Below are positions 29,908 through 36,016 of a DNA stretch of 38,898 nt, one piece after another. Position 1 is the first letter of the stretch; every line of letters starts with the position of its first letter. The stretch covers positions 1 through 38,898 of the forward strand of contig ONSO01000006.1 of assembly GCA_900320485.1 (NCBI GenBank), read 5' to 3'. The DNA is from an uncultured Lachnospiraceae bacterium (GTDB taxonomy: Bacteria; Bacillota; Clostridia; Lachnospirales; Lachnospiraceae). The position numbers and the translations under genes were made by a program. Under the pieces are notes generated by a model. That model had not been told where the DNA came from, made no database searches, and saw only the letters and a list, made by a program, of their open reading frames with translations.

Positions 29908-31566
29908 TTATTCATTTTGTGATTCTTCCGTGCTTTCCGTTGCGGTGCTTTCCTCCGCTGAGCTCTCCGTTGCGGTGCTTTCCTCCGCTGAGCTCTCAGC
30001 TGCGGTGCTTTCCTCCGCTGAACTCTCCGTTGCGGCGTTTTCTGCGGCAGCGCTCTCGGCTGCTGCCTTCTCCTGCTCCTCAAGAATTAAGTAATTGAGA
30101 TTCTTGTCAAGATCGGAGATCTGGCAATTTTCCTCCAGCTTCTCAACGTAGGCCGTTACCGCATCATTGCGAAGGCTCGATTCAATGGTCTTATACCAGA
30201 TGGGATGTCCCTCGCCTATGTAGTAAACCACAAAGCTTGCCACGTCGGGAACCGTTACGACCTCGCAATTTCCGGCGCTGCGGCCTTCTGCAAAGATCCA
30301 GTCAAGAAGCTCCTCGTAAAGGTCATCGTCCTTGGAGATGCCCTCCAGAAGACCTCCCTCAGCCACGGCCTTGTCATAAAACGTAGTGTTGCAAAGCTCT
30401 TCGAAATGAGGTTCGGTGGCGCCGCCATCCTTCCAGGCCGCAAACATATTGTTTGCTTCTTCTTCCGTATCGGAAACAAGGATGCGGACGTTGGCGGTTG
30501 CCGTCTCGTCGCGGAATCTCTTTTCAAAAGCCAGGCAATAATAGCAATGAGAACCGGAATCCTCCAGTACCGTAGTGTCGCCGGCCTTCCTCGCATCATC
30601 AAACAGCCAATCCCTGATCACGTTATTCGCGGAGTCATACAAAATGCCCTCCACAACGTCGCCGTCCGTCTTAACGGTGCCAAGCGCCTCGTCCGCAAGT
30701 GCTTTGGCATCTGCCATGGCCTTTTCCACTTCCGCTTCTGAAGGCGTATAAGCTGCATCCGCATCCGTCTCGGCGCTCTCATCCTTGGGATCCGCCAGTT
30801 CCGTGGGCTCCGTGGGAAGCTGTGCGTCAAACTGCTTAATGCGATAGTTTACGCTGTCGTACTGCTTGGGATTCTCCGCATATTTTGCCGATACTTCGTC
30901 TGCGGAAGGGGTCATGTCCTTGCTTAGCTTTGCATAGTACTTATTGACAAAAAGCGCTTCCTCCAGATAAGGCTTGATCCTTGCAGAGGTAGCATAGGAA
31001 CCAAAATTCTGGCGCAGGTACTTATTCAGGGAGACTCCGGCTTCCTGGGCATTTGCTTTTTGCTGAGCCACGATTCCTTCATATTCCGCAGATACGTCGA
31101 CGGTAAATCCCGTTGCCTGGGCGTCTGCCTTCAGCGCCTTATTCCTGCGAAGGGTGTCCATGGTCATCTCTTCAAAAAAGTCCTTCCACGTCCTGGTTCC
31201 GCTGTAATACTGCGTGGAAAGATCCTTGGACAGATCCAGTCCGAACATGCTTAAATATTGGGAATATTGGGCAACGTAATTGTTTACCACGGTGTAGTAG
31301 CTGTAATCAAATTCCACCTTGGTAACGTTCTCGTTCCCCACCGTAACGTAGGTCTTGTGAAGTGAAATATAAGAGCGGATCGGGAAAGATAATACCAGGC
31401 ATAACAGGGCCAGGAGAATCACTATCCCAACGGCAGTGGAGATTTTCTGCGCCCGCGCTTCCTTTTCCTTTTCTGCTTTTCGTTTCTGCATTTTCAAGTC
31501 ATATTTTGTAATGACCTTCTCTGCCTGCTCCCCGGGAGCGGCATTCTTTTTTTCTTGCTTAGACAT
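29908..31566 (-). CDS. Membrane-anchored SurA/PrsA-like foldase candidate with repeat tail
   Basis: The 552-residue protein has a charged cytoplasmic N-terminus (1-42), one membrane helix (about 45-68) and a long extracellular part. A SurA-N-like helical region covers about 80-250. A degenerate parvulin-like region follows (NVRILVSDTEEEANNMF, AEGGLLEGI, ASFVVYYIGEGHPIWY). The likely role is folding of secreted proteins; the active-site residues of parvulins are not clear, so it may be a chaperone only. The last 50 or so residues are an Ala/Glu/Ser/Thr tail built from a 10-residue repeat (ESTATESSAE). AAGGAG precedes the ATG, and a 12-bp palindrome (TGGGAAATCCCA, 31589-31600) lies just upstream. 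Confidence 0.72.
   Translation of the reverse strand: MSKQEKKNAAPGEQAEKVITKYDLKMQKRKAEKEKEARAQKISTAVGIVILLALLCLVLSFPIRSYISLHKTYVTVGNENVTKVEFDYSYYTVVNNYVAQYSQYLSMFGLDLSKDLSTQYYSGTRTWKDFFEEMTMDTLRRNKALKADAQATGFTVDVSAEYEGIVAQQKANAQEAGVSLNKYLRQNFGSYATSARIKPYLEEALFVNKYYAKLSKDMTPSADEVSAKYAENPKQYDSVNYRIKQFDAQLPTEPTELADPKDESAETDADAAYTPSEAEVEKAMADAKALADEALGTVKTDGDVVEGILYDSANNVIRDWLFDDARKAGDTTVLEDSGSHCYYCLAFEKRFRDETATANVRILVSDTEEEANNMFAAWKDGGATEPHFEELCNTTFYDKAVAEGGLLEGISKDDDLYEELLDWIFAEGRSAGNCEVVTVPDVASFVVYYIGEGHPIWYKTIESSLRNDAVTAYVEKLEENCQISDLDKNLNYLILEEQEKAAAESAAAENAATESSAEESTAAESSAEESTATESSAEESTATESTEESQNE
29936..30055. repeat. 30-bp in-frame tandem repeat at the 3' end of the foldase-like gene
   Basis: Units start near 29936, 29966, 29996 and 30026, spaced exactly 30 bp, and decay in the last copy. 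They encode the low-complexity acidic tail. Near identity suggests copy-number variation. Confidence 0.88.
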
Positions 31567-31636: not shown

Positions 31637-31675
31637 AAAGCCCTTTCACGTGATTTTCACGTGTAAAAGGGCTTT
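31637..31675 (-). terminator. Terminator after the LeuA-AraC gene
   Basis: A stem formed by AAAGCCCTT/AAGGGCTTT and an inner CACGTG pair, with a 5-base loop, is followed by an interrupted T-run on the minus strand. Confidence 0.85.
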
Positions 31676-31694: not shown

Positions 31695-33695
31695 TTATTT
31701 CTGTTTTTTGAACTGCAGGGGAGTCATTCCGTAAGCCTTTTTGAACAGTCTGTTAAAGTGCTCCACGTTTTCATATCCAACGGCCTCGGAAACGCTTTCC
31801 ACCGTCTGCTCCGACTCCTTTAAGAGGATCCGGGCCTTCTTCATGCGCTGCTCCCGAACTACGTCCTGGAAGGTCTTGCCGGTCTTCTCCTTGATGAATT
31901 TGGAGAGGTAGGGACCGGAAAGATGGCAATACTCAGAGAGGCTCTCCAGCGTTACGTCTGCATAGTGCTGCTGTATGAAGCTGATGATCTCCACCGTCCG
32001 CTCATCCCTTCCCTGGGTCACGTGCTGTTCTGCCGTCAGCTTATTGGTGGCAGAAACAAGCGCAGCAATGGATGCCTTAATGATGTCCTCGTCCACGCCA
32101 ACGCCCCAGTAGAACTTTCCGTCCGAAAGAATGCCGACGTAAGCAGCCGCCTTGGAGGAAGATCCCTTGGAGATGGCATGCTCCTCATATACGGAAAGCT
32201 CATAGGTAATGCCAAAATACGTCTTTATGGCGTTGCTCACTGCGTCAAGGCGTCCGTTACCGCCGGTGCGGATCACGCGTTTTGCGCCGCTTTGCTCAAT
32301 GGTTACCTCCGCCTGAATGCCCTTCTGTTGCTGGAAATGGCACTCCGGTATGTTAAACACGCTTCTGGGCTGGATATAAGTTTCATCAAAGATGCGGTAG
32401 ATCTCTTTCGGCTGAAGCTCCTGGTGTCTTCTGTCGGACACGCCCTTGATCAGATAGCCGACCTCCTCACGCATGGCAAGTGGCAGGGAGAAACCAAACT
32501 GCTGTTTTAACACAAATGCCACGCCGCCTTTACCGGATACGGAATTGATGCGGATAACGTCGGACTCGTATTCTCTTCCAAGATCCGAGGGATCGATGGG
32601 AAGGTAAGGAACGTCCCAGCGCTTGCCGCTCTTGCCGTCCTGTCTCCACTGCATGCCCTTGGAAATGGCATCCTGATGGGAACCGGAGAAAGCAGTAAAC
32701 ACAAGGTCTCCCGCGTAAGGAGTTCTCTCATGTACCTTCATGCCGGTAAACTTCTCATACTGTGCGCGGATATCCATGATATGGGAAAAATCAAGGCCGC
32801 TGTCCACGCCGTGGGTAATCATGTTCATGGCAAGGGTCACCACGTCCACGTTACCGGTTCTCTCGCCGTTGCCAAACAGGGTTCCCTCTACGCGGTCCGC
32901 GCCTGCAAGTACGCCAAACTCTGCGTCGCTGACGCCGGTGCCGCGGTCATTATGCGGATGAACGCTGAGAACAACGCCGTCTCTGTATTTCAGGTTTTTA
33001 TGCATGTATTCGATCTGGCAGGCAAATACGTGAGGCATGGCAACCTGTACCGTGGAGGGAAGGTTGATGATGGCCTTGTGCTCCTTGGTAGGCTTCCATA
33101 CGTCGAGAACGGCATTACATACTTCCAGCGCAAAGTCAACCTCCGTCTGGGAGAAGCTCTCGGGGCTGTACTCAAAGGTAAAATTGCCGTCCGTCTCGTC
33201 TGCAAGCTTCTTTAAGAGCTTTGCGCCGTCCACGGCGATCTTTGTGATCTCTTCCTTGCTCTTCTTAAATACCTGCTCGCGCTGTTCCACGGAAGTGGAA
33301 TTGTAAAGGTGGACCACCGCGTGGGGCGCGCCCTTGACTGCTTCGAAGGTCTTCTTGATAATGTGCTCTCTCGCCTGAGTCAGTACCTGGATCGTTACGT
33401 CGTCAGGGATCATGTCGCGCTCGATCAGCGCGCGGATGAAATTATATTCCGTATCGGAGGATGCGGGAAATCCAACTTCGATCTCCTTAAAGCCTACGTC
33501 CACCAAGATCTTGAAAAATGCCAGCTTGCTCTCAAGGTCCATGGGCTCGATCAGCGCCTGGTTACCGTCGCGCAGATCCACGCTGCACCAGATGGGCGCC
33601 TTCGTGATGCACTCTTTCTTTACCCAGTCATAGGTCATCTTCGGGGGTAAATGATAGCTCTTCTGATATTTTTGCCTGATTTCTTTTTCGGTCAT
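31695..33695 (-). CDS. leuA: 2-isopropylmalate synthase fused to an AraC-type DNA-binding domain
   Basis: The 666-residue protein joins an enzyme to a transcription factor domain. Residues 25-450 are the LeuA catalytic domain, which condenses acetyl-CoA with 2-oxoisovalerate (DLRDGNQ 40-46, HPHND 246-250). Residues about 455-556 are the LeuA dimer domain that binds leucine for feedback control (GGNGRLDAV). Residues about 565-663 are a full AraC/XylS double helix-turn-helix (VTLESLSEYCHLSGPYLSKF; SVSEAVGYENVEHFNRLFKK). The frame is open across the junction. ATG 33695 has GGAGG eight bases upstream; a 24-residue extension to 33767 has no site. It forms a one-gene unit with promoter and terminator, not a leuABCD operon. 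Confidence 0.93.
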   Translation of the reverse strand: MTEKEIRQKYQKSYHLPPKMTYDWVKKECITKAPIWCSVDLRDGNQALIEPMDLESKLAFFKILVDVGFKEIEVGFPASSDTEYNFIRALIERDMIPDDVTIQVLTQAREHIIKKTFEAVKGAPHAVVHLYNSTSVEQREQVFKKSKEEITKIAVDGAKLLKKLADETDGNFTFEYSPESFSQTEVDFALEVCNAVLDVWKPTKEHKAIINLPSTVQVAMPHVFACQIEYMHKNLKYRDGVVLSVHPHNDRGTGVSDAEFGVLAGADRVEGTLFGNGERTGNVDVVTLAMNMITHGVDSGLDFSHIMDIRAQYEKFTGMKVHERTPYAGDLVFTAFSGSHQDAISKGMQWRQDGKSGKRWDVPYLPIDPSDLGREYESDVIRINSVSGKGGVAFVLKQQFGFSLPLAMREEVGYLIKGVSDRRHQELQPKEIYRIFDETYIQPRSVFNIPECHFQQQKGIQAEVTIEQSGAKRVIRTGGNGRLDAVSNAIKTYFGITYELSVYEEHAISKGSSSKAAAYVGILSDGKFYWGVGVDEDIIKASIAALVSATNKLTAEQHVTQGRDERTVEIISFIQQHYADVTLESLSEYCHLSGPYLSKFIKEKTGKTFQDVVREQRMKKARILLKESEQTVESVSEAVGYENVEHFNRLFKKAYGMTPLQFKKQK

Positions 33696-33793
33696 GATGA
33701 CTTCCTCCATTTGGCAATCCGCAAGCCCTTCCTTTTCGCGATTTTTCAGGTAAGGTCGCGTTGTCATTTATTTATTGTTCTTATCGTTTCTAC

Positions 33794-33822
33794 ATCATAG
33801 CACTAATATCATATACAAACAA
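33794..33822 (-). promoter_or_regulatory. Promoter of leuA-araC
   Basis: TTGTTT (33822-33817), 17 bp, TATGAT (33799-33794). The weak -35 fits a promoter that needs an activator. Confidence 0.6.
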
Positions 33823-33894
33823 GTGGTAAATTTAATATATTTCTTGATCTTTTTTATCCTTTTCTGCCATCTTCTCATATTTAACAAAATAAAT

Positions 33895-33917
33895 AACTCC
33901 TTACTTGAAATGGAGTT
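33895..33917. promoter_or_regulatory. 23-bp imperfect dyad upstream of the leuA promoter
   Basis: AACTCC and GGAGTT form the outer arms, with a further TT/AA pair inside. It lies about 73 bp upstream of the -35, a usual distance for an activator site. A role as target of the fused AraC domain is inference. Confidence 0.4.
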
Positions 33918-34521: not shown

Positions 34522-35511
34522 TCAATCCGTCACGTCATCACCCGTAGCCTCTTCTTCCGGACCGCTTTTCGTAAACTTGTTTGCGCCGTCTACCGAGGCA
34601 TTCTCTTCTCCCGCAGCTTCCCCGCAGGACTCTTCCACGCCTTCATAGACGTCTTCAAACTTGACCGTCAAAGTATCCAGCACTCCCTGGATATGCTCCT
34701 CTGATAACCCATAAAATGCAACGTCTCCTTGAAATTCCTTACAGGAAAGCATCATGATGGTACAACTTTCCCCGTTTTTTTCCGCATAACCAATATCATC
34801 CACCAGCGTATACTCGGCTCCCTGACTGTTCACGTACGTGCGGACATTCCCCGTCTTTTGCATCGCAATGCTAAATGCCGCATCCTTTGCCACGTTTCCC
34901 TCCATCACGAACTGATGTACGGATATGCGACCTTCCTGATAATCGAAAATGGAATCCAGCGAATACTCCCAGGTATCATTCCCCAAGTTGGAGACGCAAT
35001 AAGACACGCTCTGCTCTTCCCCGGGAATGGCGCTGAATATACTTTGAAATCTCGTGTCACTTACGGCCGTCAGGTAATCGGGGTAGTCATAATACGTATG
35101 CTCATAAATCCCGGAGACCACTTCCACTCTTTTGTGGGTCCATTTGTCATCCGGTCCGCCCTGCTCTTCTCCCTTATTCTCCACGGAAACGCTCTCCAAG
35201 GGCTGTGCAAGCGCTTCATCGGAAATATAATTTTCATTTCCAACGGAAATTCCGTGCTCCGTTATCCTCATCTGCTCGATGATCTTGCCCGCCGCATAGG
35301 TCGTACCAATGCCGGCCACGAAAAACGCAAGAAGGATCGCCGCCGCCTTCGGGATAAAACGCCCCGCGGAAAACTTACGTATCTTACTCTTTGCTCCCAA
35401 AGCCTCTCCTGAAGCAAACTTTTCAAGAATCGCCTGATCCAATGCCGCATCCGGCTTAATTCCCGCCGTCAGCGAATCCTTTAACAGCCCCTCAAATTTT
35501 TTATTCTCCAT
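34522..35511 (-). CDS. Membrane-bound anti-sigma factor candidate
   Basis: The 329-residue protein has a cytoplasmic N-terminal part (1-48: LLKDSLTAGIKPDAALDQAILEKF), one membrane helix (about 50-72) and a large extracellular part. The layout and the 11-base overlap with the preceding sigma gene fit an anti-sigma factor that holds the sigma factor at the membrane until an envelope signal arrives. No CxxC zinc anti-sigma motif is seen. The last 45 residues are acidic and low-complexity. Confidence 0.75.
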   Translation of the reverse strand: MENKKFEGLLKDSLTAGIKPDAALDQAILEKFASGEALGAKSKIRKFSAGRFIPKAAAILLAFFVAGIGTTYAAGKIIEQMRITEHGISVGNENYISDEALAQPLESVSVENKGEEQGGPDDKWTHKRVEVVSGIYEHTYYDYPDYLTAVSDTRFQSIFSAIPGEEQSVSYCVSNLGNDTWEYSLDSIFDYQEGRISVHQFVMEGNVAKDAAFSIAMQKTGNVRTYVNSQGAEYTLVDDIGYAEKNGESCTIMMLSCKEFQGDVAFYGLSEEHIQGVLDTLTVKFEDVYEGVEESCGEAAGEENASVDGANKFTKSGPEEEATGDDVTD

Positions 35512-36016
35512 ATCGCAATTTCTCCTTTAACGTGCTCCTCGCCTTGTTTAGTCTGCTCTTCACCGTTCCCGTCGGAATAGCCAGCGCATGAGCGATCTCC
35601 TCGATGGACATTTCCTCCATGTAATACATGAGAATTACGATCCTGTGCTTTTCGGGAAGCGTCAGTACGCAGGCGCGGACCCGTTCCTCCTCCTGCCTTC
35701 TGATCACCTCATCCTCCACGGACCCTCCCCCGTCGGCAATCTGTCCCAGCTCCTCTTCCCCCGGATACGTAACTTCCGCGATCCGCTTCCGCCAGGCCAT
35801 TTTCCGCATGCGGTTCCTCCAGAGATTTGTGGCAATGGTGATCAGATAAGACTTCGCATTCTGCTCCATGGCAACCTCATCCTTCTCCAGCGCCACAAGG
35901 AACGTCTCCTGATACAACTCATCCGCAGCCTCCTTGCTTCGCGTACAGTACAGGCAAAAGGAATAGAGACTTTTCCCATATTCTTTTATCAAATTCTCAG
36001 CATCGGCTTTGTTCAT
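35501..36016 (-). CDS. ECF-type RNA polymerase sigma factor
   Basis: The 171-residue sigma factor has region 2 (about 5-75: DELYQETFLVALEKDE, KSYLITIATNLWRNRMRK) and region 4 (about 115-165: LPEKHRIVILMYYMEEMSIEEIAHAL, then TVKSRLNKARSTLKEKL). Regions 1 and 3 are absent, as in ECF factors. AAAGGA lies before ATG 36016. It heads a three-gene operon with the anti-sigma candidate and a small membrane protein. Confidence 0.94.
   Translation of the reverse strand: MNKADAENLIKEYGKSLYSFCLYCTRSKEAADELYQETFLVALEKDEVAMEQNAKSYLITIATNLWRNRMRKMAWRKRIAEVTYPGEEELGQIADGGGSVEDEVIRRQEEERVRACVLTLPEKHRIVILMYYMEEMSIEEIAHALAIPTGTVKSRLNKARSTLKEKLRYGE

Follow-up and report, generated by a model that had tools for sequence, protein, structure and literature searches.

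An AraC-type DNA-binding domain fused to 2-isopropylmalate synthase in Lachnospiraceae, and a conserved two-box element predicted as its target at the leuA promoter

Can an enzyme of leucine biosynthesis also regulate its own gene? The question is raised by a leuA gene in the window analyzed here, by which we mean the whole 38,898-nucleotide stretch of contig ONSO01000006.1 (assembly GCA_900320485.1) from an uncultured Lachnospiraceae bacterium. The initial annotation described a LeuA catalytic domain, a dimer domain and a full AraC double HTH in one frame, and proposed that such a protein could read the leucine level and act on transcription itself. Pfam confirmed this anatomy: barrel, post-catalytic domain, dimer domain, and the HTH_18 and HTH_AraC matches follow one another in this order, all above their cut-offs (Table 1). 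PutA, BirA, NadR and Ada are trigger enzymes that carry a DNA-binding domain of their own, which in Ada is of the AraC type. The anatomy of LeuA-HTH and its predicted DNA target support a comparable role.

Table 1. Features of the leuA-HTH locus; Pfam residue positions are numbered from ATG 33767, not from ATG 33695
Feature	Positions	Strand	Details
leuA-HTH gene	31695-33695	-	666 aa counted from ATG 33695; frame open to ATG 33767
HMGL-like catalytic barrel	32766-33596	-	Pfam residues 58-334, 2.5e-70
IPMS_D2 post-catalytic domain	32505-32708	-	Pfam residues 354-421, 5.1e-31
LeuA_dimer allosteric (leucine-binding) domain	32037-32420	-	Pfam residues 450-577, 1.2e-26; model
AraC/XylS-type seven-helix double HTH domain	31704-32003	-	Pfam; model
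HTH_18 match	31701-31937	-	residues 611-689, 9.7e-20, 71.1 bits vs cut-off 33.6
Conserved 44-bp promoter element, putative operator	33817-33860	-	final six bases are the -35 hexamer TTGTTT
Extended -10, TGCTATGAT	33794-33802	-	17 bp after the -35
Ribosome-binding site GGAGG	33704-33708	-	AGG kept in relatives
Hairpin and T run 3' of the stop codon, probable terminator	31637-31675	-	by eye

Open-reading-frame analysis gave an uninterrupted minus-strand frame of 690 codons (31695-33767), and comparison of starts pointed to ATG 33695 as the approximate start common to relatives. The initial annotation had singled out the junction between the LeuA part and the HTH as the place where a stop or frameshift might lie; the window has neither, and the frame is continuous through it. 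By NCBIfam the protein is a long-form 2-isopropylmalate synthase (NF002991, 797.6 bits against a cut-off of 455), and it falls below the NCBIfam cut-off of the yeast-type equivalog TIGR00970 (657.6 against 697.4). The nearest solved structure by sequence is that of M. tuberculosis LeuA (1SR9/3FIG), with which the window protein shares all catalytic and dimer domains and the catalytic residues, whereas it adds a C-terminal AraC domain and an element at its own promoter. The alignment retained all seven positions that we take to be catalytic in the M. tuberculosis enzyme (R80, D81, E218, H285, H287, H379 and Y410), and these are invariant in the 53 fused proteins aligned, out of a list of 63 full-length ones. 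In the dimer domain, the GNG motif and Y503 are likewise invariant across the 53, and other positions of the leucine pocket, as we presume these dimer-domain positions to be, vary (e.g., A or S after EEH). By its domains and catalytic residues, the window protein fits a 2-isopropylmalate synthase with predicted activity and predicted inhibition by leucine. In mycobacterial LeuA, leucine binding closes a loop of the dimer domain and inhibits catalysis, according to PMC11057210.

With two HTH motifs in about 100 residues and a score above the Pfam cut-off, the window protein also belongs to the AraC/XylS family. A structure model of the 666-residue protein, built from the 53-sequence alignment (mean pLDDT 79.5, pTM 0.59), ends the last helix of the dimer domain at residue 556 and places the seven AraC helices at 565-664, with a modeled linker of 8 residues between the two domains. 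This agrees with the earlier view that the leucine sensor directly adjoins the DNA-binding domain. Given the pTM of 0.59 and the poor middle parts, the relative placement of domains in the model is not to be trusted.

The neighbors of leuA in the window were also inspected. Upstream (34522-36016) are an ECF-type sigma factor (Sigma70_r2/r4) and then a frame of 329 aa that matches nothing in Pfam and may encode the partner of the sigma factor. Downstream (29908-31566) is a 552-aa frame with a repetitive Ser/Ala/Glu tail and a weak SurA_N_3 match below the Pfam cut-off.

The same LeuA-AraC architecture, which the initial annotation suggested looking for among relatives, is common in the family. 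At least 89 of the 397 genomes of the family, the own one among them, carry end-to-end fusions with matches to residue 687 or beyond, a lower bound counted among the matches listed at about 799 bits or more. Three of the 89 have a stop within the matched stretch, yet contain open frames of 664-669 codons, and one further fused gene (L101, in G163) ends at a contig end inside the HTH. The named collection was examined through the best 80 of its 565 confirmed loci, which come partly from the same genomes as the loci with G handles; the DNA examined shows a LeuA frame of at least 660 residues in 75 of these 80. Their titles read Lachnospiraceae, Acetatifactor, Roseburia, Eisenbergiella, Lachnoclostridium, Clostridium, or unplaced Bacillota/Eubacteriales bacterium, from which we infer that the family of 397 genomes is Lachnospiraceae. 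Among the matches listed by a search of the order (E up to 1e-200), 50 of 90 were fused, and none of the 13 from other families was. At class level (E up to 1e-215), 66 genomes from other families matched and 3 of them had fusions (G788, G922 and G924); at phylum level (E up to 1e-235) 1 of 3 did (G1358), so that four fusions in all were found in other families.

Against five own-clade relatives the HTH has a dN/dS of 0.017-0.042, similar to that of the catalytic part (0.025-0.038), with dS near saturation. By this measure the HTH is under purifying selection, and its invariant positions are present in the alignment of fused proteins; the conservation in orthologues on which the initial annotation had staked its proposal was thus found. 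In two relatives (L100 in G061 and L106 in G078) an HTH that exceeds the Pfam HTH cut-offs directly follows the leuA stop in another frame, with the promoter element kept; this arrangement may be a split gene, frameshift or slippage, or an assembly error. The same-genus genome G022 has a fused LeuA plus a 52%-identical unfused one (loci L009 and L273), and a further four same-genus genomes have the unfused type only. We found no earlier description of a LeuA-AraC fusion in the open literature, a coverage that leaves most subscription journals and preprints outside, and none is described in the available parts of PMC11057210, PMC9026213 and PMC5171806.

Inspection of upstream regions, together with an unsupervised motif search in the 600 nt before 64 fused genes, returned one 44-bp element with the consensus AtATTAAAAtA.ATCAAtaAAA.TGATTAAAtTTatCacTtt.c. 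The element (AtATTAAAAtAnATCAAtaAAAnTGATTAAAtTTatCacTtt) ends at the leuA promoter's -35. The set counted L101 (cut by the contig end within the HTH) as fused and left out L022 (143 nt upstream), L027 and L030, the latter two of which do carry the element (as L131 and L126). All 64 fused loci examined have it: 63 score at least 12 within 600 nt, and in L049 it lies at -827, above a T-box. By contrast, none of 62 HTH-less leuA loci scores 10 or more (highest 9.2; the 62 include five of a distant LeuA type from same-genus genomes and two with less than 300 nt upstream), and none of 320 shuffled sequences reaches 10. The element is present at both split-HTH loci (46.0 and 27.4) and at all four out-of-family fusions (35.2, 38.5, 46.9 and 49.8). 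A hold-out model trained on 53 loci outside the own clade, in which one spacer base may be missing, scored at least 10 at 9 of 10 own-clade loci and at 65 of the 72 named loci with at least 400 nt upstream. Scores below 10 were given to L040 and to the other 7 named loci, and a score of 10 was reached by none of the 60 HTH-less loci and by none of the 410 Markov sequences. Four of the 80 named loci (L149, L152, L170 and L190) have no LeuA motif in the DNA examined.

A FastTree phylogeny built on the LeuA part shows HTH-less genes interspersed among fused ones at several points. This tree, on which gain and loss are indistinguishable, requires 7 changes of the HTH label. The element is missing from all HTH-less rows and present in all HTH rows except L049, where it lies beyond the 600 nt used; L228, with 59 nt upstream, was not scorable. 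On well-supported branches, HTH and element agree, under most pairings, in 3 of 3 independent pairs, a number at which the sign test is not significant. By these comparisons HTH and element change together on the tree, and we hold their pairing to be very probably real. Since the element tracks the HTH and not leuA as such, the comparative data support an autoregulated target at the gene's own promoter, as initially proposed, with the element at 33817-33860 as the predicted target. The dyad at 33895-33917, which had been put forward for this role, is present in the window but in none of five own-clade relatives; we reject it as the operator, the conserved element lying nearer the promoter.

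The placement of the element relative to the promoter is mostly constant. The window promoter has the -35 TTGTTT and the -10 TATGAT, from which a transcript start near 33787 is predicted. In five own-clade relatives the blocks of the element are kept, as are the -10 and some of the RBS, and most else drifts. In 86 of 122 distinct loci (score of at least 10, 40 nt downstream, identical stretches counted once) the extended -10 has its start 14-15 nt past the element, a spacing seen in 108 of 2440 shuffles, and in 90 of the 122 the -35 hexamer matches TTGACA at no more than 3 of 6 bases. Near-consensus -35/-10 pairs show no excess in fused promoter stretches (5 of 63 vs 21 of 315 shuffles). A near-consensus promoter was found within 600 nt of 37 of 60 HTH-less loci vs 118 of 300 shuffles, a longer scan that is not directly comparable with the fused stretches. 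Compared with itself at a 22-23 bp shift the motif gave 0.44 and 0.33, and as an inverted repeat it did better (0.59 and 0.55), so that it contains two half-palindromic boxes separated by roughly two turns of the helix. AraC-type activators bind at the -35, and a two-box layout ending there resembles, by analogy, their sites. A third element-like copy, TTAAAAAnnGACAAtAAAnTTGATnA, was seen downstream of the promoter at L052, L058, L066, L067, L069, G085, G384 and G141, in most of these 73-75 nt from the first copy and 63 nt in G141.

T-boxes sit in the leader and read tRNA charging. A T-box motif occurs in 46 of the 62 HTH-less leuA loci, and fused genes with a T-box have the element upstream of it, at the promoter. 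Rfam confirms T-boxes in L055, L057, L064, L068 and L072, and that of L041 is below the Rfam gathering score. T-box control (RF00230) resembles the arrangement proposed here in acting on the same gene to the same end, leucine supply, but it relies on a leader-borne tRNA sensor, and several fused loci have both T-box and element.

Beyond leuA, a few genomes have the element before leuC, leuB-ilvD or ilvB. With up to 3 mismatches to the own-type pattern allowed, the leuA site is the sole match in the own genome (86% complete). Of twelve genomes, G711 and G662 likewise have the leuA site only and the other nine have no match, so the pattern is too narrow for them; the reversed-pattern control gave 0. 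A general pattern, also at up to 3 mismatches, found the leuA site in 28 of 30 fused genomes (missing G207 and G062) and gave 87 matches in all, vs 46 for the reversed pattern, which fell in 15 of the 30 genomes. Because of these 46, weak matches are not counted as sites, and a broad regulon was rejected on the same figures. Among 24 non-leuA matches that were scored (L121, L129, L138, L147 and 20 chosen by hand), those above 30 are at leuC in G207 (36.5), leuB-ilvD in G341 (32.1) and ilvB in G191 (33.1), with products named by NCBIfam. The ilvB site of G191 stands behind a T-box and overlaps a near-consensus TTGACA/TATAAT promoter. The element precedes leuC in five of six genomes of G207's genus and in 0 of 24 other leuC loci (30 examined), leuB in 2 of 30 loci, both in g18 genomes, and ilvB in 2 of 30 (G191, and G232 at 19.4); on both strands, the rest of these 60 leuB and ilvB loci gave nothing above 8.5. 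At 5, 2 and 2 of 30 loci, an element before leuC, leuB or ilvB was discarded as a general rule. Element-like sites were also seen near a nitroreductase-like frame (L312 in G297, 26.3) and a sodium-symporter-like frame (L309 in G191, 24.7), both named by eye; these and further non-leuA sites (L311, L314 and L318 at 17-20, L138 at 18.9) have neighbors without a clear leucine link.

We propose that a long-form 2-isopropylmalate synthase acquired a DNA-binding domain of the AraC type where its leucine-binding dimer domain ends. A LeuA-HTH dimer would bind the two boxes of the leuA promoter element, as well as those before leuC, leuB-ilvD or ilvB in the genomes that have them, and leucine binding in the dimer domain would alter DNA binding as well. 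Low leucine would then mean active enzyme and activated promoter, and high leucine inhibited enzyme and shut promoter. The sequences directly show the fusion and its conservation, and they show the element, how it is tied to the HTH and that it mostly keeps a fixed distance from the -10. That LeuA-HTH is a leucine-sensing autoregulatory enzyme acting on this element we consider probable; that leucine is the signal seems reasonably likely; and on the sign of the response we lean toward activation rather than repression.

Repression deserves attention on this last point. If leucine-bound LeuA-HTH sat on the element and blocked the promoter at the -35, one would understand why box 2 covers this hexamer and why the own clade keeps a fair, TTGTTT-like -35 together with its extended -10. 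The G191 ilvB site, which overlaps a TTGACA within a near-consensus promoter, would suit repression, and so could the extra copies that some leuA promoters have beyond the -10 (mostly 73-75 nt from the first copy, 63 in G141). However, the rigid -10 spacing and mostly poor -35 fit activation at the -35 better, and near-consensus -35/-10 pairs are not enriched in fused stretches (5 of 63 vs 21 of 315 shuffles); we regard leucine-dependent repression as possible but doubtful. It is less likely still that the signal is the catalytic state or the product 2-isopropylmalate, in which case the fusion would report flux and not leucine. Yeast Leu3 responds to 2-isopropylmalate, regulators of leucine genes that sense a product are known from other systems, and barrel and dimer domain do share one chain, but the HTH joins the dimer domain through a linker modeled at 8 residues, and the GNG motif and Y503 of this domain are invariant.

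The HTH might also regulate elsewhere or merely tether the enzyme, with the element serving an unlinked regulator. The own genome does hold 16 other HTH matches, AraC-type HTHs among them. Nevertheless, the element accompanies the HTH and is missing where the HTH is missing, even where HTH-less genes nest among fused ones, and fusions outside the family carry it too, which makes this explanation improbable. Finally, the two relatives with an HTH out of frame could hint at an assembly artefact or a degenerate passenger HTH. Comparative data refute this, and we give it practically no weight: intact, end-to-end fusions in at least 89 of 397 genomes mean that the fusion is no assembly artefact, and the invariant HTH positions and the HTH dN/dS of 0.017-0.042 argue against a degenerate domain.

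A LeuA-HTH that senses leucine and acts on its own promoter would have parallels in known systems. It shares with AraC/XylS regulators, such as AraC and YesN-type response regulators, a complete seven-helix double HTH and a two-box site ending at the -35 (here predicted from sequence), but its effector part is a biosynthetic enzyme with catalytic residues rather than a cupin or receiver, and its boxes are 22-23 bp apart, against 21 bp in AraC. Like the trigger enzymes PutA, BirA, NadR and Ada, LeuA-HTH probably regulates genes of its own pathway. It differs from them in being another enzyme, in that an amino-acid feedback site would double as the transcription sensor, and in being tied mainly to one promoter in the genomes searched. 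Enzyme, leucine site, DNA-binding domain and matching DNA together form one inherited unit. With moderate confidence we suggest that the effector site of this AraC-type regulator is the allosteric leucine site of the enzyme, so that one leucine-binding event inhibits the enzyme and resets the promoter. The same suggestion holds that this self-contained enzyme-operator unit is common in Lachnospiraceae, has probably reached other families as well, takes the place of T-box control or is layered on it, and in some lineages has come to include leuC, leuB-ilvD or ilvB.

With the target DNA now predicted, the idea is directly testable. If true, it would give a further role to proteins that their family name presents only as enzymes, and would suggest a means of leuA control at loci that lack a T-box. 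A single leucine site would combine enzyme inhibition and gene control, giving a large group of gut bacteria a leucine feedback circuit made of a single protein.
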